Of a stretch of 34,992 nt of DNA, positions 17,592 to 33,508 are shown piece after piece. Below the pieces are notes generated by a model. It had not been told where the DNA came from, did not search any database, and saw nothing but the letters and a program-made list of their open reading frames with translations. Origin of the DNA: Bacteroidota bacterium (lineage in GTDB: Bacteria; Bacteroidota; Ignavibacteria; Ignavibacteriales; Ignavibacteriaceae); contig JAKAJV010000060.1 of the NCBI GenBank assembly GCA_021813585.1, positions 1 through 34,992 on the forward strand, given 5' to 3'. Positions within the stretch are counted from its first letter, which is position 1. The number at the start of each line of letters is the position of its first letter. Position numbers and translations under genes: made by a program.

Positions 17592-18176
17592 ATGTATGTT
17601 AGTAATGTAATTCCTGTTGAAGATGTTCTTATTAAATCCGAAATAACAGAAGTAAAGTTTGTATGCGATCTTGAAAAGTGCAAAGGCGCGTGTTGTACTA
17701 TAGAAAGCGATTACGGAGCGCCTCTGCTGGAAGAAGAAATAACAGAGATAGAAAAAGTTCTGGATGTGGTAATAGAATATCTTCCCGAAGTGCATAGAAA
17801 AGAAATAGAAAAGAACGGGTTTTACGATGTTAAAGACGGTGAGCTCTTAACAAGCAGCGTTAACAGAAAAGCCTGCGTGTTTGTTTACTACGAAAAAGGC
17901 ATTGCTAAATGCGGAATTGAGCGTGCCTTTCTTGACGGTAAAATCAAGTTTAAAAAACCTATTTCGTGCCACCTTTTCCCGATTAGGGTATCCAAGTTTG
18001 GCGGCGACGTACTTAGGTATGAAAAATTCGGCGAATGCAATGCGGCCCTTGAGAACGGCGCTAATCTAAATATCGATCTCGTCGATTTCTGTAAGGAGTC
18101 TCTTTCAAGATTATACGGACAAAAATGGTTTTCAACATTAAAGGAAATTATCGGAAAGCGAAATGTTAACACTTAG
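17592..18176 (+). CDS. DUF3109 family cysteine-rich protein
   Basis: 194 aa from the ATG at 17592. A longer in-frame start at 17445 would overlap the divergent kinase fragment and add a hydrophobic, low-quality 49 residues, so I reject it. Nine cysteines are arranged as CDLEKCKGACC (25-35), then C95, C107, C126, C149 and C167. This pattern resembles the YkgJ-type putative metal or Fe-S binding proteins, and the ISCHLFPIRV motif (125-132) is typical of DUF3109. It is cytoplasmic and of unknown function. Its stop overlaps the start of rpoN by 14 bp, so the two are almost certainly translated from one message. Confidence 0.82.
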   Translation: MYVSNVIPVEDVLIKSEITEVKFVCDLEKCKGACCTIESDYGAPLLEEEITEIEKVLDVVIEYLPEVHRKEIEKNGFYDVKDGELLTSSVNRKACVFVYYEKGIAKCGIERAFLDGKIKFKKPISCHLFPIRVSKFGGDVLRYEKFGECNAALENGANLNIDLVDFCKESLSRLYGQKWFSTLKEIIGKRNVNT

Positions 18177-19614
18177 TCAAAAGTTGTCTCAACAGCAAAA
18201 ACTTTCACCTCAGCAGATTCAATATCAAAAGCTGCTTCAGTTGAATACTCTGGCCCTTGAGCAGAGAATTAAAACCGAACTTGAACTGAATCCCATACTT
18301 GAAGAAGTACTGACGGAGGACATGGACCTTAACCAGGACTCAGAGGAAAAGGAAACTGCGGAGGAGGAGGAGGAATTTGAAGGCAGCGAGAAAGATGAAT
18401 TTGAGCTAGAAGATTTTATGAACGATACCGATTTCGATTCCGACCGTCTTAATAAAAGCAGGGATGAGGAAGTTTATCAGCCTTTGGCACCCGCCAGGGA
18501 AAGCTTAAGCGAGCACCTTCTGCAGCAGCTAAGCATGCTTAACCTTAACGACGACTTTTATTTTCTGGGGGAGGAGATTATAGGCAACCTGGATTCCGAC
18601 GGTTACCTGAAGAGAGACCTCGGCGAAATTCTGAGCGATCTGGAAATGTTCGAGCATGTTTTTATTACACCGGATGAAGCCGAAGCGTTACTAAAAAAGA
18701 TCCAGACATTCGACCCGATAGGAATTGCCGCAAGAAGCCTGCAGGAATGCCTTCTTGTTCAACTAAGGAATCAGCCTCACGATCCGTATTATTCCTATTT
18801 GGCAGAGGAACTGCTGGAAAAGTATTACAACGATTTTACACAGAAGCGGTACGATGTAATTAAACAGAAGATGAATCTTACCGACCAGAGCCTAAAAGCT
18901 ACCATCGATCTTATCCAGAGCCTGAATCCGAAGCCGGGCGAAGGCAACATCGATTCGGTTGAAATGAACCAGATTACTCCTGATTTTATTATAGAAAAGG
19001 TGGATGATAATTTCGTTATTACTCTTAACGATAAAAGCGTTCCTTCCGTTACGTTAAGCAGAACGTATTTGGAAATGATTGATCATAATAAAAAGGGAAG
19101 GAAGGCTTCTCCCAGGGAAAAGAACACTTACAAATTCCTACGTGAAAAATTCGAGTCGGCAAAATGGTTTATTGCATGCATACAGCAGCGCAGGGAAACC
19201 CTGATGAAGATTATGCAGGCAATTGTGGAAAAGCAGTATGAGTTTTTCGATAAAGGCCCGAAGCTGCTGAAGCCGATGATCTATAAAGATATTGCCGACG
19301 AAATACAAATGGATATTTCCACAATAAGCAGGGTGGTAAACGGCAAGTACGTCCAGAGCCCGATGGGCATCCACGAGCTGAAATATTTCTTCAGCGAGGG
19401 GCTAAGCACCGATTCAGGCGAAGAGGTTTCCAATAAGCATATAAAAGAAAGATTAAAAGAAATTTTCGAGAGCGAAGACAAGAGCAATCCTTACAGCGAC
19501 GATAAGCTTGCGGAAATTCTGAACGACGAAGGAATCCATATAGCCAGGCGTACAGTTGCCAAATACAGGGAACAGCTAAGAATTCCTATCGCAAGGCTGC
19601 GCAGAGAATTATGA
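18163..19614 (+). CDS. rpoN: RNA polymerase sigma-54 factor
   Basis: 483 aa, normal length. Region I is Gln/Leu-rich (LSQKLSQQQKLSPQQIQYQKLLQL) and includes the helices that contact activators. A strongly acidic region II follows (about residues 47-95, with EKETAEEEEEFEGSEKDEFE). Region III carries the core-binding part (AARSLQECLLVQL) and a helix-turn-helix with IADEIQMDISTISRVVNGKYVQSPMG. The RpoN box ARRTVAKYRE (461-470) for -24 recognition is intact. It overlaps DUF3109 upstream by 14 bp and the methyltransferase downstream by 4 bp (ATGA). It would work with AAA+ activators such as the one at 24472-26943. Confidence 0.97.
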   Translation: MLTLSQKLSQQQKLSPQQIQYQKLLQLNTLALEQRIKTELELNPILEEVLTEDMDLNQDSEEKETAEEEEEFEGSEKDEFELEDFMNDTDFDSDRLNKSRDEEVYQPLAPARESLSEHLLQQLSMLNLNDDFYFLGEEIIGNLDSDGYLKRDLGEILSDLEMFEHVFITPDEAEALLKKIQTFDPIGIAARSLQECLLVQLRNQPHDPYYSYLAEELLEKYYNDFTQKRYDVIKQKMNLTDQSLKATIDLIQSLNPKPGEGNIDSVEMNQITPDFIIEKVDDNFVITLNDKSVPSVTLSRTYLEMIDHNKKGRKASPREKNTYKFLREKFESAKWFIACIQQRRETLMKIMQAIVEKQYEFFDKGPKLLKPMIYKDIADEIQMDISTISRVVNGKYVQSPMGIHELKYFFSEGLSTDSGEEVSNKHIKERLKEIFESEDKSNPYSDDKLAEILNDEGIHIARRTVAKYREQLRIPIARLRREL

Positions 19615-24471: not shown

Positions 24472-26943
24472 ATGAATATACCGGCTTTGTTGAGGAACAA
24501 ATTTTTAATAAAGATATTATTAGCAGCCGTATCGGTAATCCTGTTATTTTCAATTAAGAATTTTGAGACCGGCGTCGACAGGAATATTGAAGGCGTATAT
24601 TCATTGGTCAGGGGGCAGCAGCAGCCGGATACTGATATTGTAATAATAAACATTTCTTCAAACGACATAAATAACCTCGGCCATTGGCCGTTAAAGCGGA
24701 GTTACTATGCTTTGCTTATCAACAGTCTATACGGGTATGGCGCAAAGGCTATAGGGCTCGAAGTTTTTTTAAGCGCCAAATTTGTAACGCAAACATTATA
24801 CGATAACCTTGTTACAAGAGAAATTGAAAAAGCCGGCAACGTAGTTTTAAGCGCGGTAGCAGGCAATCTTTATAGTAAGGACGGAAAGTATTATACCGAT
24901 TCGTTAAGCTACCCCAGCTCAAAGCTTTTAGATGACAGACTGGTAACCGGCCACTTAAATTATTTTTCAGAAGACGGCATTAAAATACCTTTCATTGTCC
25001 ACAGCGATCATGCCAAGATAGAGGCTTTTGCTCTCCAGCTTGCAGGCAAGCAGTATTCGTTTAACGACGGCTCCCTGCTGAAGGTTAATTTTATCTCTTC
25101 CTGGAAAAAATTCCGGAGCTATTCGCTTTTAAAATATTTTCAGCTTGTAAATGAAAACAGCAGCGAGCTTAAAAATATTGCAGGTAAGTATGTTCTTATC
25201 GGCGTCAGCGATCCGCAAATTGCCACAACTACCGCTACAACCTTCGACGACCGCCTGCCCGGAGTTGCCCTGCATGCGTTTGCGCTTGATAATATACTTA
25301 TGCACCGATGGCTTAACGACGGTTATATCTTGCCTTCGGAAATTCTTTTTATCATCTTAATTGCGTTTTTAATTATTACATTGAATAAAAAACCGGGTAT
25401 TAAGCTTTCATATTTTTATCCGGCCGTTTTTTTCTCTTTTCTTATCTTAACGTTTATAACTTATTCTTTCTTTAATATCGAGCTCGGGTATTCGGCATTT
25501 CTTATTCCTCTTCTCTTAATGATTATTACCGATTCGTCCTTCTACCTTCTCGATAAAAAGCTTCTGTTGCAGGGTGTAATGGATGAATCAAACCTGCTGA
25601 AAAAACTGCTGTCGAATAAAGAGCAGGAACTTGCCAGGCTTCAGAAGGAACTGAACATCTCAGGTGAAACCGGATCGCATTCTCTGGTAGAAAAGATTCA
25701 ATTGCTTAAGGCGGATATTGAGAAGCTTAAGGAAAATGAATCCGATAAAAAAGAGGCTCCGGGAAATCCTTCCGTCCCTGCGGTTAATTTTGAAGGAATA
25801 ATATACTGCTCAAAAGCGATGAGCAAGGTTGCGGAAATAATAAAGAAAGCTGCGCCCGAGGATGCCAATGTTTTAGTCCTTGGCGAAAGCGGAACGGGGA
25901 AAGAGCTAGTTGCAAAGGCTATCCATTCCTTAAGCAAACGAAATAAGAACAAATTTGTAGCGGTTAACTGCGGCGCGCTTTCAGAAACTCTTTTGGAAAG
26001 TGAGTTGTTCGGACATGTAAAAGGAGCCTTTACCGGCGCAGTGGCCGATAAGGTAGGCCGCTTTGAAGCAGCCAACCACGGCACTATTTTCCTGGATGAA
26101 ATTGCAGAGACCACAGAGAGTTTTCAGGTAAAGCTATTAAGAGTAATTCAGACCGGCGACTTTGAGAAAGTCGGCTCATCCCAAACCTTCCATACCGATG
26201 TTAGAATTATTGCCGCAACAAACCGGAACATCGAATCGGCCGTTAAAGAAAGAAAATTCCGTGAAGATCTTTATTACAGGCTTAACGTAATTAAGATTGA
26301 GCTTCCGCCGCTGCGCGATAGAAAAGAGGATATAGAATACTTAACTAAACATTTCCTCCAAAGAGAAGCCGGTGAAAATAAATTGTCCGAAGCTGCTTCG
26401 GATGCGCTGCAAAAATATGAGTGGAAGGGCAACGTTAGGGAATTGGAAGCTGTAATCAAAAGGGCGGTTATATTTGCAAAATCTTCGGGCAGAAGCCTCG
26501 TTCAGCTGGCGGACCTGCCGGAAGAGATAATTAAAGACAGTAAGTTTTCCTTTGATGATGTTGTAATAGAATCTCTGCGCAGCAAAAAATTCTCGCGCTC
26601 ATCTATAAACGAGACTGCTAAGGAACTGGGGAATGTAAGCCGCACAATAATATCCGAGAATTTCCGAGGCTACGCGCTAAAGACGCTCGTAGAGAACAAC
26701 TTTAATTTCGATCCGGCTTCCAAAATTATTGCCGGCAGTGATGACGCTGAGGCGGCAGAAAGGGTAAAGAGCAAGCTTAGTATGTTCATTAGAAATATTG
26801 AAAGCGATTTAAAGGAGCTGCATTCAAATAATTTTGAGGAAATAAAAACCGAGTTCAGCTCGAAGTATAAAAACCTACCGCATAAATTTCACTTTTACCT
26901 CGACGAGATTATAAAAAGATATTCCGGCGAAAATATAGAGTGA
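24472..26943 (+). CDS. Transmembrane CHASE2 sensor fused to a sigma-54 AAA+ activator
   Basis: 823 aa. A membrane helix (11-28) leads into an extracytoplasmic CHASE2 domain (about 33-285; starts FETGVDRNIEGVY, with IVIINISSNDINNLGHWPLKRSYYALLINSL and later RLPGVALHAFALDNIL). Three more membrane helices follow (about 289-304, 313-334, 338-356), then a cytoplasmic coiled coil (about 366-425). The sigma-54 AAA+ domain (about 440-670) has Walker A GESGTGKE (471-478), the sigma-54-contacting loop GAFTGA (518-523), Walker B TIFLDE (538-543) and GNVRELE (653-659). The C-terminal 130 residues hold a possible helix-turn-helix (INETAKELGNVSRTIISENFRG, 712-733). It should activate sigma-54 transcription in response to a periplasmic cue. 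Confidence 0.9.
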   Translation: MNIPALLRNKFLIKILLAAVSVILLFSIKNFETGVDRNIEGVYSLVRGQQQPDTDIVIINISSNDINNLGHWPLKRSYYALLINSLYGYGAKAIGLEVFLSAKFVTQTLYDNLVTREIEKAGNVVLSAVAGNLYSKDGKYYTDSLSYPSSKLLDDRLVTGHLNYFSEDGIKIPFIVHSDHAKIEAFALQLAGKQYSFNDGSLLKVNFISSWKKFRSYSLLKYFQLVNENSSELKNIAGKYVLIGVSDPQIATTTATTFDDRLPGVALHAFALDNILMHRWLNDGYILPSEILFIILIAFLIITLNKKPGIKLSYFYPAVFFSFLILTFITYSFFNIELGYSAFLIPLLLMIITDSSFYLLDKKLLLQGVMDESNLLKKLLSNKEQELARLQKELNISGETGSHSLVEKIQLLKADIEKLKENESDKKEAPGNPSVPAVNFEGIIYCSKAMSKVAEIIKKAAPEDANVLVLGESGTGKELVAKAIHSLSKRNKNKFVAVNCGALSETLLESELFGHVKGAFTGAVADKVGRFEAANHGTIFLDEIAETTESFQVKLLRVIQTGDFEKVGSSQTFHTDVRIIAATNRNIESAVKERKFREDLYYRLNVIKIELPPLRDRKEDIEYLTKHFLQREAGENKLSEAASDALQKYEWKGNVRELEAVIKRAVIFAKSSGRSLVQLADLPEEIIKDSKFSFDDVVIESLRSKKFSRSSINETAKELGNVSRTIISENFRGYALKTLVENNFNFDPASKIIAGSDDAEAAERVKSKLSMFIRNIESDLKELHSNNFEEIKTEFSSKYKNLPHKFHFYLDEIIKRYSGENIE

Positions 26944-26950
26944 TAGGAAA

Positions 26951-27017
26951 TTTGAGTTCAAGTTTAAGTTCAAGTTCAAGTTCAAGTTGAAGCTTGCCTG
27001 CTGCAAGCAGGTTCAAG
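26951..27017 (+). repeat. Hexamer tandem repeat TTCAAG plus palindrome, inverted relative to the 24283 tract
   Basis: Units are TTTGAG, TTCAAG, TTTAAG, three TTCAAG, TTGAAG, then a palindrome (GCTTGC 26992-26997, GCAAGC 27003-27008, and CCTGC...GCAGG overlapping), then one more TTCAAG (27012-27017). TTCAAG is the reverse complement of CTTGAA, so the two tracts flank the regulator gene in opposite orientation, each with its palindrome on the right. Confidence 0.88.
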
Positions 27018-27114
27018 AATAGTCTTTCCATTTAAAATAATTACCGTACGTCATTAGAATTTTCTTTCCACCAATTTTCGCTTAGTCTTAGTAATCCGGT
27101 CGATTATTTTTGAG

Positions 27115-27132
27115 TAACATTTTGCAATGTTA
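27115..27132. promoter_or_regulatory. Perfect inverted repeat, possible activator binding site
   Basis: TAACATT-TTGC-AATGTTA is a perfect 7-bp inverted repeat with a 4-bp spacer. It lies about 120 bp upstream of the -24 element at 27251, within the usual range for enhancer sites of sigma-54 activators. That the adjacent regulator binds it is inference only. Confidence 0.4.
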
Positions 27133-27250
27133 TTGTAGTCTAAAGTTTATTCATGAAAGATTGCCGCGTACCTTGTATAAAAAAATATTTTCTGTGTACA
27201 GCATAGTGTGCAAGGTTTAATCTGAACCGGGCATTTTCTGCAATAATAAC

Positions 27251-27266
27251 TGGCACATCAATTGCC
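27251..27266 (+). promoter_or_regulatory. Sigma-54 (-24/-12) promoter
   Basis: TGGCAC-ATCAA-TTGCC. The invariant GG (27252-27253) and GC (27264-27265) are separated by exactly 10 bp, and the TGGCAC and TTGC flanks fit the sigma-54 consensus. The expected start of transcription is near 27277, which gives a leader of about 42 nt with a strong ribosome site before the ATG at 27319. Its position right behind a sigma-54 activator gene strengthens the call. Confidence 0.75.
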
Positions 27267-27318
27267 GCTTGCGCTGCCGGCAATACGTAAGTAAATAAAA
27301 ATCTAAATAGGAGGAAGG

Positions 27319-28206
27319 ATGCTTAACAAAAAAATTATTGTTCTGTTTTTAATTACACTTTTCAGCCTAACATATACTTTTGCACAGGAGGAAGAGGATA
27401 CAACCAAGGTTGAAAACGAATGGGGAAAACATCATCATAAATTTAAATGCGATCTACTGAGCCATGAATTTGAAGGCAGTCCGACGGTATCGTTGGAATA
27501 CGGATTTTCTAAGATGAATCTAAACGGTTTCGGTGAAACTTTTGCTAAGCCCAATCTCGCGGAAATTCAGCTCGGTTACACACACATGGATACGGAAGAT
27601 GAGGGTATACTTAAGTATAAATATCGTTACTTATTTCTAAGTAATTTTTCAACCGATCTTGCAGGCTCATCCGGTGCAGCCGATATAAAAACGGATATGT
27701 GGCGCTTCGGATTCGGAAGATCGATTGGTTACGGATATCAGATCGGTTCCGGCGCAATTATTCCATATCATACTTATTCTTTCGAATGGACTCAGCTCCG
27801 ATTGAAAGACGATCCGGCCAGCCAGGCGGATAAAAGTATGACCGACCTGTTCAACAAATCGTTCAGGTTCGGTACCGGCTTTAACGGCGGTATAAAATTT
27901 AAGATTATCCCTAATATAATGCTCGATGCCGGGTACGAGCGCTCGATAATATTTCCGAGGCATTTATTCTGGAAATGGCTTGGTAGCGTAGTTATTGAAG
28001 GCGCCGGCCAGGGAGCGATAGATCATTTTGTAGACAAGATTATGGATTCTTCACCATATGCTGTACCGGTGGTAAGCTTTGTCTTGAAGAATGCTCTTTC
28101 ATACGGATTATACGAGCTGCGCCGGGAAAAAATGAATTGGCCGTTTGCCTCGGCACCCCCGCTTTCATACGATCAATTTAAGATAGGAATTACATTTGTA
28201 TTTTAG
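27319..28206 (+). CDS. Putative outer-membrane beta-barrel protein, sigma-54 controlled
   Basis: 295 aa. The signal peptide (MLNKKIIVLFLITLFSLTYTFA|Q) is followed by an acidic stretch and a His-rich patch (GKHHHKFKC). The rest alternates aromatic, Gly and polar residues in strand-like blocks (AEIQLGYTHMDTED, MWRFGFGRSIGYGYQ, FRFGTGFNGGIKFKI, IMLDAGYERSIIF) and ends in FKIGITFVF, a C-terminal aromatic strand of the type recognised by the BAM complex. I do not recognise the family. A perfect GGAGG ribosome site precedes the ATG, the sigma-54 promoter at 27251 is the likely promoter, and a strong hairpin terminates it. The gene is therefore a probable target of the CHASE2 regulator. Confidence 0.7.
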   Translation: MLNKKIIVLFLITLFSLTYTFAQEEEDTTKVENEWGKHHHKFKCDLLSHEFEGSPTVSLEYGFSKMNLNGFGETFAKPNLAEIQLGYTHMDTEDEGILKYKYRYLFLSNFSTDLAGSSGAADIKTDMWRFGFGRSIGYGYQIGSGAIIPYHTYSFEWTQLRLKDDPASQADKSMTDLFNKSFRFGTGFNGGIKFKIIPNIMLDAGYERSIIFPRHLFWKWLGSVVIEGAGQGAIDHFVDKIMDSSPYAVPVVSFVLKNALSYGLYELRREKMNWPFASAPPLSYDQFKIGITFVF

Positions 28207-28216
28207 TTGGAATAGA

Positions 28217-28245
28217 CAAGCCCGGCCTTCCCTTTGCCGGGCTTG
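28217..28245 (+). terminator. Hairpin terminator after the outer-membrane protein gene
   Basis: CAAGCCCGGC and GCCGGGCTTG form a perfect 10-bp stem around a 9-nt loop, starting 10 bp after the stop codon. The U-tract is poor (CATTTG), so it may work less well than its stem suggests. It separates this gene from the lipoprotein gene. Confidence 0.65.
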
Positions 28246-30286: not shown

Positions 30287-33200
30287 TTAGTTATATTCAT
30301 CCCAGCTTTTAACCGATAGAGTATGTACATTAAGGCGGTACAAAGCTTTAACGAAACGTTTGGCTACCTGGATGTTCGTTATTAGATTTACATTCATATC
30401 AACAGCCTTTCTTCTTATAAGGTAGTCGTTGTCTAGCTCATATTTTTCTTCATTCTTCGGAATGTTTATTACGAGGTCAATCTTCCCTTCATTTAGATAG
30501 GTCATTATATTCGGCTCTTCCTTCTCCAGCGGCCAGTAGAGCACTTCTGCCTCAATGTTGTGCTGTTTTAAAAATTTTGCAGTTCCGTTTGTAGCGTAGA
30601 ACTTTAAGCCCATTGCATAAAGTTTCTTCGTTTCATTCAGGAATTCGGCCTTATCCTTTAACGTGCCGGTGGAAAGCATTACGGCCTTTTGCGGCATGCG
30701 GTAGCCCGTTGATAAAAAGCTTTTTAAAAATGCTTCGTTAAAATCGTCGCCAAGGCATGCAACCTCGCCGGTAGAAGCCATTTCTACTCCTAGAATAGGA
30801 TCCGATCCCTTTAACCTGGTAAAAGAAAATTGCGGAGCTTTTACACCCACATAATCAACGTCGAAGGATGATTTGTCGATTCTCGGCACCCGCTCTCCCA
30901 TCATAAGCTTTGTGGCAATTTCTATAAAATTAATTTTTAATACTTTGGAAACAAACGGAAAGCTCCTGGATGCTCTCAGGTTGCACTCTATAACCTTTAT
31001 CTCGTTATCCTTTGCAATAAACTGGATGTTGAAAGGTCCGGTAATTTTCAGTTCCTTGGCAATTTGCCTGGTTACCATTTTAACGCGCCGCATTGTTTCT
31101 AGGTACGTGCGCTGCGGAGGAAGTACTATAGTTGCATCGCCGGAATGCACGCCGGCGTTTTCAACATGCTCGGAGATTGCATAACAAAACAGATCGCCGT
31201 TTTCCCCTACAGCATCAACTTCTATTTCCCTGGCGTCCGTAATAAATTTGCTTATAACAACGGGGTGGTCTCTGCTAATATCCGAAGCCTTTTTAAGATA
31301 CTGTTCAAGCTCGTCGTCCGATAGAACTATGCTCATAGCTGCGCCGCTTAATACATAGCTGGGGCGTATAAGAACAGGGTAGCCTACCTTGGCTGCAAAT
31401 ATTTTCGCTTCATTTAAATCGGTCAGTTCTTTCCACTCCGGCTGGTCTACTTCTATTCTATCGAGAATCTGGGAAAACTTGTGCCGGTTTTCCGCATTGT
31501 CTATTTGTTCGGGTGAGGTGCCGAGTATCTTAACACCAGCGCTGTGCAGCTTTACTGCAAGGTTGTTGGGTATCTGTCCCCCCATTGATATTATAACGCC
31601 GCCGGGATTTTCCTTTTCGTAAATATCAAGCACTCTTTCAAAGGTAAGCTGCTCAAAGTATAGCTTATCGCAAATATCATAATCCGTGCTTACGGTTTCA
31701 GGGTTGCAGTTAATCATTATGGTGTTATACTCAAGTTTATTTAATGCCATAACCGCATTAACGCAGCACCAGTCGAACTCAACCGAAGAGCCGATTCTAT
31801 ATGCGCCGCTTCCAAGTACTATTACCTGGCTGGCTGCGGGGCTTACGGGCTTCCCGGCCATATTCCCAAACTCTATGTCGTCCTCAATACCGTGGTAAGT
31901 AAGGTACAGGTAGTTAGTCTGCGCAGGATATTCAGCAGCCAGAGTATCAATCTGCTTTACAACTGGAACAACACTCAAACTCTTCCGGTAATTTCTAACC
32001 TCAAAGTCGGTTGAGTTTGTAAGTCTGCCGATCTGGATATCCGAGAAGCCGTTCTTTTTTGCCTCGCTCATCAATTCGATGGAAATTTTATTCAGCTTCA
32101 GCCCGTTCAGTTCCTTTTCGGTCTCGATAATGTTCTTCATCTTATAAAGGAACCACGGAGTAATTTTTGTCAGCTCGTGTATCCTTTCAATTGAGTAGCC
32201 TTTCTTAAGTGCCTGGGCAATGGCATAGATTCTTTTATCTGTAGGCTGGGATAATTCTTTATCAAGATCTCCAAAAATCAGATCGTTGCCGGTAAAGCCC
32301 CTCATAGAGATGTCCAGCATTCGTATTGCTTTCTGAATCACTTCTTCGAAGCTTCTACCGAGCGACATTACTTCGCCGACCGATTTCATTTCAGAGCCGA
32401 GCTGAGTGCTTACCTGCCGGAACTTCTGCAGGTCCCACCGAGGGAATTTAAGAGCCACATAATCCAACGCCGGCTCAAAACATGCAGAGGTTTCCCTGGT
32501 AATAATGTTTTCAACTTCGTTCAGCGCATAGCCTAGAGCAAGCTTGGTTGCAATAAACGCCAGTGGGTAGCCGGTCGCCTTGGATGCGAGCGCCGAGCTT
32601 CTGCTTAAGCGCGCATTCACTTCAATTATCCTGTAGTCGTCGGAATTAGGATCTAATGCGTACTGAATATTGCATTCTCCCACAACTCCCAGATGACGGA
32701 TTAACTTTATGCCGATTGACCTGAGCATGAAATTTTCGTGCGCCGATAAAGTTTGGACGGGCGCAATTACAATGCTGTCGCCGGTATGTATCCCCATCGG
32801 GTCTATGTTCTCCATCGAGCATATTGTTATACAGTTGTTGAATTTGTCCCTGACGATTTCGTACTCGACTTCTTTCCACCCGTAAAGAGATTCTTCAATA
32901 AGGATCTGGTTGGTAAATGTGAAGGCTCTCCTGGCCTTCTCGATCAGTTCTTCTTTATTGTTCACTATTCCGGAGCCGAGCCCTCCCAACGCATAAGCGA
33001 TTCTAACCATTACCGGGAATCCGATAGTCTCGGCAGCCGCTACGGCTTCTTCAACGTTGCGCGCCGTTCTGCTTAAAGCCACCTTCAAACCTATTTCGGT
33101 AACTTTGTTCGCAAAGAGTAATCTGTCTTCGGTAGCCTGAATAGCCTCGACTGGAGTGCCGAGTACTTTAATGTTGTACTTTTCGAGGATGCCTTTTTCG

Positions 33201-33508
33201 TAAAGGTCAACGCCTACATTAAGCGCGGTTTGTCCGCCGAACTGCAGCAGTATGCTGTCGGGTTCTTCTTTTGCAATTATCCTTTCAACGAATTCGGTTT
33301 TGATGGGCATGAAATAAACTTTGTCGGCAAAGTTTTCCGAAGTTTGAATTGTTGCGATGTTCGGGTTAATAAGTACCGAAGTTATTCCGTCTTCCTTTAA
33401 TGCCTTAATAGCCTGGCTGCCGGAGTAGTCAAACTCGCCAGCCTGCCCAATCTGTAATGCGCCGGATCCTAGAATTAAAACTTTTTTTGGTTTGCCGCGT
33501 TTAATCAT
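30287..33508 (-). CDS. carB: Carbamoyl-phosphate synthase large subunit
   Basis: 1073 aa, full length. It makes carbamoyl phosphate from bicarbonate, ATP and ammonia delivered by CarA, for pyrimidine and arginine synthesis. Two homologous ATP-grasp halves are visible: the first starts with VLILGSGALQIGQAGEFDYSG, the second with VIVLGSGAYRIGSSVEFDWCC and INCNPETVSTDYD. Both contain E..ARLSRSSALASKATGYP- or ECNLRASRSFPFVSK-type ligand regions. The last 130 residues (LSTGTLKDKAEFLNETKKLY...NLITNIQVAKRFVKAL) are the MGS-like allosteric domain. Its start overlaps the carA stop by 4 bp (ATGA), so the two are translationally coupled. Confidence 0.98.
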   Translation of the reverse strand: MIKRGKPKKVLILGSGALQIGQAGEFDYSGSQAIKALKEDGITSVLINPNIATIQTSENFADKVYFMPIKTEFVERIIAKEEPDSILLQFGGQTALNVGVDLYEKGILEKYNIKVLGTPVEAIQATEDRLLFANKVTEIGLKVALSRTARNVEEAVAAAETIGFPVMVRIAYALGGLGSGIVNNKEELIEKARRAFTFTNQILIEESLYGWKEVEYEIVRDKFNNCITICSMENIDPMGIHTGDSIVIAPVQTLSAHENFMLRSIGIKLIRHLGVVGECNIQYALDPNSDDYRIIEVNARLSRSSALASKATGYPLAFIATKLALGYALNEVENIITRETSACFEPALDYVALKFPRWDLQKFRQVSTQLGSEMKSVGEVMSLGRSFEEVIQKAIRMLDISMRGFTGNDLIFGDLDKELSQPTDKRIYAIAQALKKGYSIERIHELTKITPWFLYKMKNIIETEKELNGLKLNKISIELMSEAKKNGFSDIQIGRLTNSTDFEVRNYRKSLSVVPVVKQIDTLAAEYPAQTNYLYLTYHGIEDDIEFGNMAGKPVSPAASQVIVLGSGAYRIGSSVEFDWCCVNAVMALNKLEYNTIMINCNPETVSTDYDICDKLYFEQLTFERVLDIYEKENPGGVIISMGGQIPNNLAVKLHSAGVKILGTSPEQIDNAENRHKFSQILDRIEVDQPEWKELTDLNEAKIFAAKVGYPVLIRPSYVLSGAAMSIVLSDDELEQYLKKASDISRDHPVVISKFITDAREIEVDAVGENGDLFCYAISEHVENAGVHSGDATIVLPPQRTYLETMRRVKMVTRQIAKELKITGPFNIQFIAKDNEIKVIECNLRASRSFPFVSKVLKINFIEIATKLMMGERVPRIDKSSFDVDYVGVKAPQFSFTRLKGSDPILGVEMASTGEVACLGDDFNEAFLKSFLSTGYRMPQKAVMLSTGTLKDKAEFLNETKKLYAMGLKFYATNGTAKFLKQHNIEAEVLYWPLEKEEPNIMTYLNEGKIDLVINIPKNEEKYELDNDYLIRRKAVDMNVNLITNIQVAKRFVKALYRLNVHTLSVKSWDEYN

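Follow-up and report, generated by a model that had tools for sequence, protein, structure and literature searches.

Putative sigma-54 and ECF-sigma type promoters before an outer-membrane barrel gene in the Ignavibacteriales

Does a sigma-54 type promoter between the gene of a membrane-bound activator and the gene of an outer-membrane protein form, together with a nearby rpoN, a self-contained regulatory circuit, or is it independent of its neighbours? The question is raised by contig JAKAJV010000060.1 of a Bacteroidota bacterium of the family Ignavibacteriaceae (assembly GCA_021813585.1), of which a stretch of 34,992 nucleotides, here called the window, was analysed. As a first-pass annotation of the sequence had stated, rpoN and the activator gene are both in the window, and profile matches support them: sigma-54 is encoded at 18163–19614 (Sigma54_DBD 2e-59; TIGR02395 430 bits, cut-off 277) and an 823-aa membrane-bound sigma-54 activator at 24472–26943 (CHASE2 4e-27; Sigma54_activat 5.1e-70). 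They are followed by the gene of a 295-aa outer-membrane protein at 27319–28206, and all three genes are on the forward strand.

The outer-membrane protein, first put down as unrecognised, is not wholly so, as it matches PF13505 (OMP_b-brl) with 38.2 bits against a cut-off of 28.7 (2.2e-9). It has a signal peptide, an N-terminal helix at residues 2–18 and an eight-stranded barrel at residues 54–294, followed by the final F295 (model mean pLDDT 89.4, pTM 0.79); the last residues, ITFVF, bear out the barrel-type aromatic end that had been read from the sequence. Family score, signal peptide, eight strands and aromatic end all place it among the PF13505 barrels. It is like NspA, OmpX and OmpA in its signal peptide, strand number and final aromatic residue, and differs from them in a helical hairpin of about 57 residues (214–271) that the model puts between strands 7 and 8, a connection that we take, by the usual topology, to lie on the cell surface. 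The nearest solved fold is NspA (Z 15.7, rmsd 3.2, 149 aligned), which is also the top Foldseek match (9e-7), and the OmpA barrel matches with Z 14.0; the hairpin entered the structure search as part of the whole protein, and the matches are uninformative about it. A PDB sequence search with the protein gave no match at E ≤ 0.1. In an alignment of 16 sequences, 15 of the 30 invariant columns fall in residues 214–281; a larger alignment was gathered with peptide patterns from the hairpin region, and invariance there was therefore discounted. Just behind the gene, at 28220–28242, a hairpin GCCCGGC-N9-GCCGGGC, noted by eye and with a loop too long for the scan rule, is a possible terminator and would possibly make the barrel gene a single-gene unit. 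About 2 kb downstream of the barrel gene, the window carries carB (30287–33508) on the other strand; in some genomes of a second family, f2 (L330, G093), the barrel gene comes after carB and a response-regulator gene.

Upstream of the barrel gene, TGGCACATCAATTGCC at 27251–27266 of the forward strand reads as a sigma-54 type -24/-12 site. The GG-N10-GC spacing is exact, as claimed at first reading (T27251 G27252 G27253; T27262 T27263 G27264 C27265 C27266), and the site lies where it had been placed, with 52 bases between it and the ATG at 27319. Transcription from it would be expected to start at about 27277. The strong ribosome-binding site said to follow it is indeed a good one, AGGAGG at 27309–27314 (forward strand), and GGAGG-like sites are aligned with it in the genus. 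By itself, TGGCACATCAATTGCC does not exceed what chance would give: with up to one mismatch allowed, a -24/-12 match turns up in 75 of 100 shuffled versions of the window, and TGGCAC-N5-TTGC occurs once in the whole genome, as against seven times for the reversed control pattern. A matrix built on 21 sites found elsewhere in this genome, with the window site excluded, gives it a score of 11.4 (p = 0.03), which is a middling match. An inverted repeat ATTGCCG-N10-CGGCAAT (27261–27284), which spans the -12 box in the window only, was set aside since it is absent from the aligned genus regions. The sole Rfam match, MicC, was below threshold (27.6 bits, where the cut-off is 90; E 0.16) and was taken as chance, and a scan for sigma-70 promoters and terminators was uninformative (7 and 1, against shuffle means of 4.9 and 1.3).

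The genome was scanned for further -24/-12 sites, as the first-pass annotation had proposed. The canonical form TGGCAY-N5-TTGCW, with one place against six for the reversed control, seemed to speak against a sigma-54 regulon; this was overturned by the looser form YGGCAY-N5-TTGNW, which admits any base after TTG and showed both an excess (76 places against 43 for the reversed pattern) and a placement before genes. Of the 76 sites, 28 are not in a reading frame and 21 have a gene start no more than 200 bases away; the corresponding numbers are two and none for the control loci, which are the 30 of the 43 reversed-pattern places that had loci and entered the comparison (p = 0.0007). Twenty of the 21 genes behind these sites were searched against Pfam; eight matched no family and twelve did, namely HSP20 (n = 2, loci L116 and L132), universal stress protein, FliL, CcmB, NADH dehydrogenase chain 3, GH9, SdrD_B, CarboxypepD_reg, SPW, DUF6600 and HEAT. 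Several of the unmatched genes start with an apparent lipoprotein signal, as judged by eye. The -12 box before genes of this genome is TTG followed by A, T or G: C follows TTG in none of the 21 promoter-like, one of 28 intergenic and 13 of 48 in-gene sites (p = 0.013), and among the barrel-gene sites of relatives in just 5 of 29, with GG-N10-G kept. The canonical GC may not be the rule in this lineage, and the TTGC of the window would be an exception.

A homologue of the barrel gene is present in 39 of 41 relatives, in 12 of the 13 genomes of the genus and, at E ≤ 1e-15, in 100 of the 113 genomes of the order that are 90% complete or more. In each of the 12 from the genus, GG[CT]A[CT]-N5-TTG stands upstream of the gene, with the GG at -51 to -77, and it is kept at 53–62% protein identity; the pattern was found in 0.22% of shuffled regions. 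Most genus sites outscore the window site on the 21-site matrix. Two sites, in G002 (p 0.62) and in G026 (p 0.25), do not pass this matrix and retain the GG-N10-G spacing; G002 is counted as having a site by the pattern and as having none, its score being too low, by the matrix. With a fixed threshold and position and an independent matrix, the site was recognised in 26 of 52 barrel-gene regions of family f1, to which the genus belongs, leaving the other 26 without one, in three of four of f3 and in none of 30 of f2 (controls: 60 of 17,600 shuffles, 0.34%; 1 of 176 offset regions). These 86 regions comprise 79 from the 100 genomes of the order with the gene (45 of 46 f1, 30 of 50 f2, with 20 f2 genomes unsampled, and 4 of 4 f3) and seven from f1 genomes less than 90% complete. 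The set excludes G014 (contig end) and G034 (split frame); of the extra gene copies, the second ones in G019 and G024 were scored on the 21-site matrix and not counted, and the third one in G024 was not scored. The start codons of the relatives' genes were chosen by script, and the matrices were trained on sites picked by pattern, so that their fixed letters hold by construction. The first-pass annotation had made its promoter depend on conservation in close relatives; this is complete in the genus and partial beyond it, and with the many gene-preceding sites in the genome it makes a sigma-54 promoter before the barrel gene credible.

Four conserved blocks stand out when the upstream regions of the 12 genus genomes are aligned: CCGnnnTTCAT-like sequence some 270 bases ahead of the gene (27044–27057, forward strand), GTAAC...GTC at about -200, a TGTnnA-N6-TRTTCA-like direct repeat, and the -24/-12 site. 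The first of these is retained also where the activator gene is missing. The second is, in the window, an ECF-sigma type element GTAAC-N19-GTCTAA at 27114–27143 of the forward strand (p = 0.01, score 19.6). Its spacer exceeds by one base that of 16 of the 17 reference promoters from which the matrix was made, all of them promoters of genes other than the barrel gene. At p ≤ 0.05, where 5% is expected by chance, this matrix found the element in 24 of 30 f2, 4 of 4 f3, 8 of 12 genus and 14 of 40 other f1 regions; G007, G011, G009 and G005 are the four genus genomes that miss this level, and in G006 the best-scoring place is elsewhere, at -300. The setting of GTAAC-N18-GTC differs among the families. 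It stands alone in f2, as TGTAAC-N17/18-CGTCTAA at -53 to -70 and with no sigma-54 site, at -118 to -127 in f3, with a sigma-54 type site nearer the gene (that of G026 below threshold), and about 200 bases upstream in the genus.

The exact ECF pattern is rare, with 10 places across 12 genomes (control 1): five precede the barrel gene, one an ECF sigma gene, two DUF4097-like genes and two the genes of other exported proteins. For the genus form GTAACnTTT-N12-14-GTCWWA, 24 places were found across nine genomes (control 9), before ECF sigma (n = 6), DUF4097-like (n = 6), barrel (n = 4) and TolC-like (n = 2) genes and that of one other exported protein, with five places lacking a clear target. Pooled, the 34 places point to few targets, with nine before the barrel gene, seven before an ECF sigma gene and eight before a DUF4097-like gene. 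The window's own genome has two exact places, one before the ECF gene, which starts 36 bases after the element begins, and one before the DUF4097 gene. Targets were assigned by Pfam in this genome (Sigma70_r2 3.8e-17, DUF4097 2.8e-25) and by eye in the others. The ECF gene (L326) overlaps the gene of a 175-aa protein that has a single hydrophobic stretch and reaches no Pfam cut-off, and this one-helix membrane protein is probably an anti-sigma factor. The element before the barrel gene is shared with the ECF gene's own promoter, and the barrel gene looks like a member of an ECF-sigma regulon, a point absent from the first-pass annotation.

We regard it as probable, on the strength of these sequence comparisons, that the barrel gene is a surface or envelope-response gene read from two promoters, an older distal one of ECF type and one of sigma-54 type. 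The elements, their conservation and the lack of association between site and activator are observed directly, and from them we infer that both promoters would function, which sigma factor each may use, the signals involved, the role of the barrel protein and the order in which the promoters arose. By one route, the distal promoter would make the gene part of a small regulon, together with the DUF4097 gene and an ECF sigma factor that regulates its own gene, and this sigma factor, once freed from its membrane anti-sigma, would bring about transcription of the barrel gene. By the other, in f1 and f3, the putative sigma-54 promoter lies between the ECF element and the gene (in the window at 27251–27266), and sigma-54 polymerase would wait at the -24/-12 site until an AAA+ activator sets it going. 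The CHASE2 protein next to it may be such an activator, and the promoter is retained also without it. The direction from an old ECF to a new sigma-54 promoter is taken from the spread over the three families rather than from a reconstruction. We suggest with some reserve that control of one conserved outer-membrane protein may have been handed from an ECF envelope-stress sigma factor to sigma-54 within one order. The stages could have been, just as tentatively, an ECF promoter only, then both in tandem, then a sigma-54 promoter near the gene with the ECF element distant or missing, while the adjacent activator came and went.

The first-pass annotation had proposed a closed circuit of sensor, sigma-54 and target, in which the CHASE2 protein would sense the periplasm and activate the adjoining barrel gene via sigma-54. 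The activator comprises a CHASE2 sensor, four predicted membrane helices, a coiled coil, an AAA+ domain with GAFTGA, and C-terminal helices. The GAFTGA loop is invariant save for one residue among 18 sequences, with S at one residue in some relatives. In the model (pLDDT 80.6, pTM 0.46), the membrane helices are at about 10–27, 286–306, 312–334 and 341–366, with the CHASE2 fold between the first two, and the C-terminal helices at 694–704, 711–718 and 724–741, modelled with modest confidence, could form a DNA-binding helix-turn-helix. Like NtrC-type enhancer-binding proteins, the activator has an AAA+ domain with GAFTGA and a lid, and its best PDB sequence matches are NtrC, FleQ and NifA domains; unlike them, it has a membrane CHASE2 sensor, a long C-terminal extension and no helix-turn-helix found by Pfam. 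The retained loop and the potentially DNA-binding helices are consistent with a closed circuit, as are the adjacency of activator and barrel gene in 23 of 52 f1 genomes, 13 of them with the site, and the conserved direct repeat upstream of the site. This repeat, TGTACA-N6-TGTGCA at 27195–27212 of the forward strand, is the block between both promoters in the genus alignment and tentatively a candidate activator site. It lies upstream of just one of the 21 other sigma-54 type sites in the genome. An activator-specific site that vanishes with the activator was rejected, because the repeat is still present in the activator-less genomes G003, G005 and G010, and being kept there it is no help to the closed circuit. 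Just after the activator gene, a tandem repeat of short aagttc-like units (26956–26996) is found, within the genus alignment, in the window only, and one stop is reported in the activator frame of G006.

The distribution of the activator argues against the circuit. The full activator is present in 60 of 113 genomes of the order (E ≤ 1e-110). Within f1 the site is equally common with it (16 of 32 genomes) and without it (10 of 20; Fisher p = 1), with the same outcome when only genomes of 90% completeness or more are counted (14 of 29 and 7 of 16; p = 1), and it is present in 13 of 23 genomes with the two genes adjacent as against 13 of 29 with them apart (p = 0.58; adjacency tallied by hand from gene places), the counts being from related genomes and thus not independent events. 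The site is kept and the activator missing in ten f1 genomes (G003, G005, G010, G016, G046, G052, G061, G066, G068 and G070) and in G028 and G030 of f3; G003, G052, G061, G066 and G028 are 98–100% complete, and four of the twelve are drafts below 90% (G005, G010, G016 and possibly others). In G003, G010 and G005, hslU and the barrel gene stand side by side, with the activator gone and the site kept, and the tree places G003 and G010 on one and G005 on another of two separate, well-supported branches within the genus; G016 (L263) has the same arrangement. No activator remnant is claimed for the interval from hslU to the barrel gene in any of these four, as tblastn matches were short, with E 0.77 or worse. 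In nine genomes, from genera g2, g13 and g31, activator and barrel gene adjoin each other and the matrix test recognises no site. The barrel gene is lacking in G008, which has the activator, and in f2 the activator is present in 11 of the 30 sampled genomes, nowhere adjacent, with no sigma-54 site before the barrel gene. Five stand-alone activator loci (L138, L142, L144, L146, L149) have no intergenic sigma-54 type site with a score of at least 11, and thus no other target of the activator was found. Regulator, promoter and barrel gene, whose staying together the first-pass annotation had wished to see checked, therefore do not stay together: the activator is missing on two genus branches that keep the site, and the nine genomes just named have the adjacency alone. 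Because the site is kept where the activator is gone, a closed three-part circuit is unsupported and we consider it unlikely; the dissociation of the two across genomes marks the pair as an old neighbourhood of which the promoter is independent. The rpoN of the window is likewise there by inheritance of the gene order rpoN-hslV-hslU-activator, and a general sigma factor has no need to be encoded near its targets. In this species, the CHASE2 protein may be one activator of the barrel promoter and not a fixed partner.

We give even less credit to the ECF promoter alone being used, with the sigma-54 site a relic or bound without activation; the ECF element across all three families and the half of f1 lacking a recognisable sigma-54 site would fit this, but in the genus the sigma-54 site is kept throughout, at the protein identity given above, and the ECF element varies more. 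That the -24/-12 site is a chance match could be held on the window alone, where single-sequence tests do not rise above chance, but the idea was dropped as scarcely credible after conservation in relatives and placement had refuted it as far as conservation can.

Reading of the barrel gene from both an ECF-type and a sigma-54 promoter would have parallels in E. coli rpoH and P. aeruginosa algD, which each carry both kinds of promoter and are thus likewise single genes read by an envelope-stress sigma factor and sigma-54. It would differ from them in that the target is an outer-membrane barrel protein and that the promoter mix changes between families. In the neighbouring Bacteroidota species Flavobacterium psychrophilum, according to the available part of a published study (PMC9723704), there is one sigma-54, and SM4-class promoters precede genes for protein quality control, envelope stress, gliding and exported proteins. 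The same part of that study describes a surface operon with a sigma-54 and a second type of promoter, both proven by reporter and mutation, the second being of class SM5 as against the ECF type here; a further class, SM6, with a CGT box, is ascribed to an ECF sigma factor, and neither a CHASE2 activator nor this barrel gene is met there. Two further sources, likewise available in part, tie sigma-54 to the bacterial exterior in a wide comparison (PMC3162934) and report that sigma-E activity lowers rpoN expression in Stenotrophomonas (PMC10433810).

Our literature search found nothing on CHASE2 with sigma-54, nor on sigma-54 in Ignavibacteria or Ignavibacterium, and the present account is thus a first outline, open to test, of a sigma-54 regulon and an ECF regulon in this group, with a shared cell-surface target. 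Adjacency of an activator gene and a promoter is poor evidence that the one regulates the other, and the probable history of two promoters holds more interest than the closed circuit. The families offer a natural series in which the switch of a gene from one sigma factor to another can be studied, and if the handover is true, such a change would be visible stepwise in living lineages.
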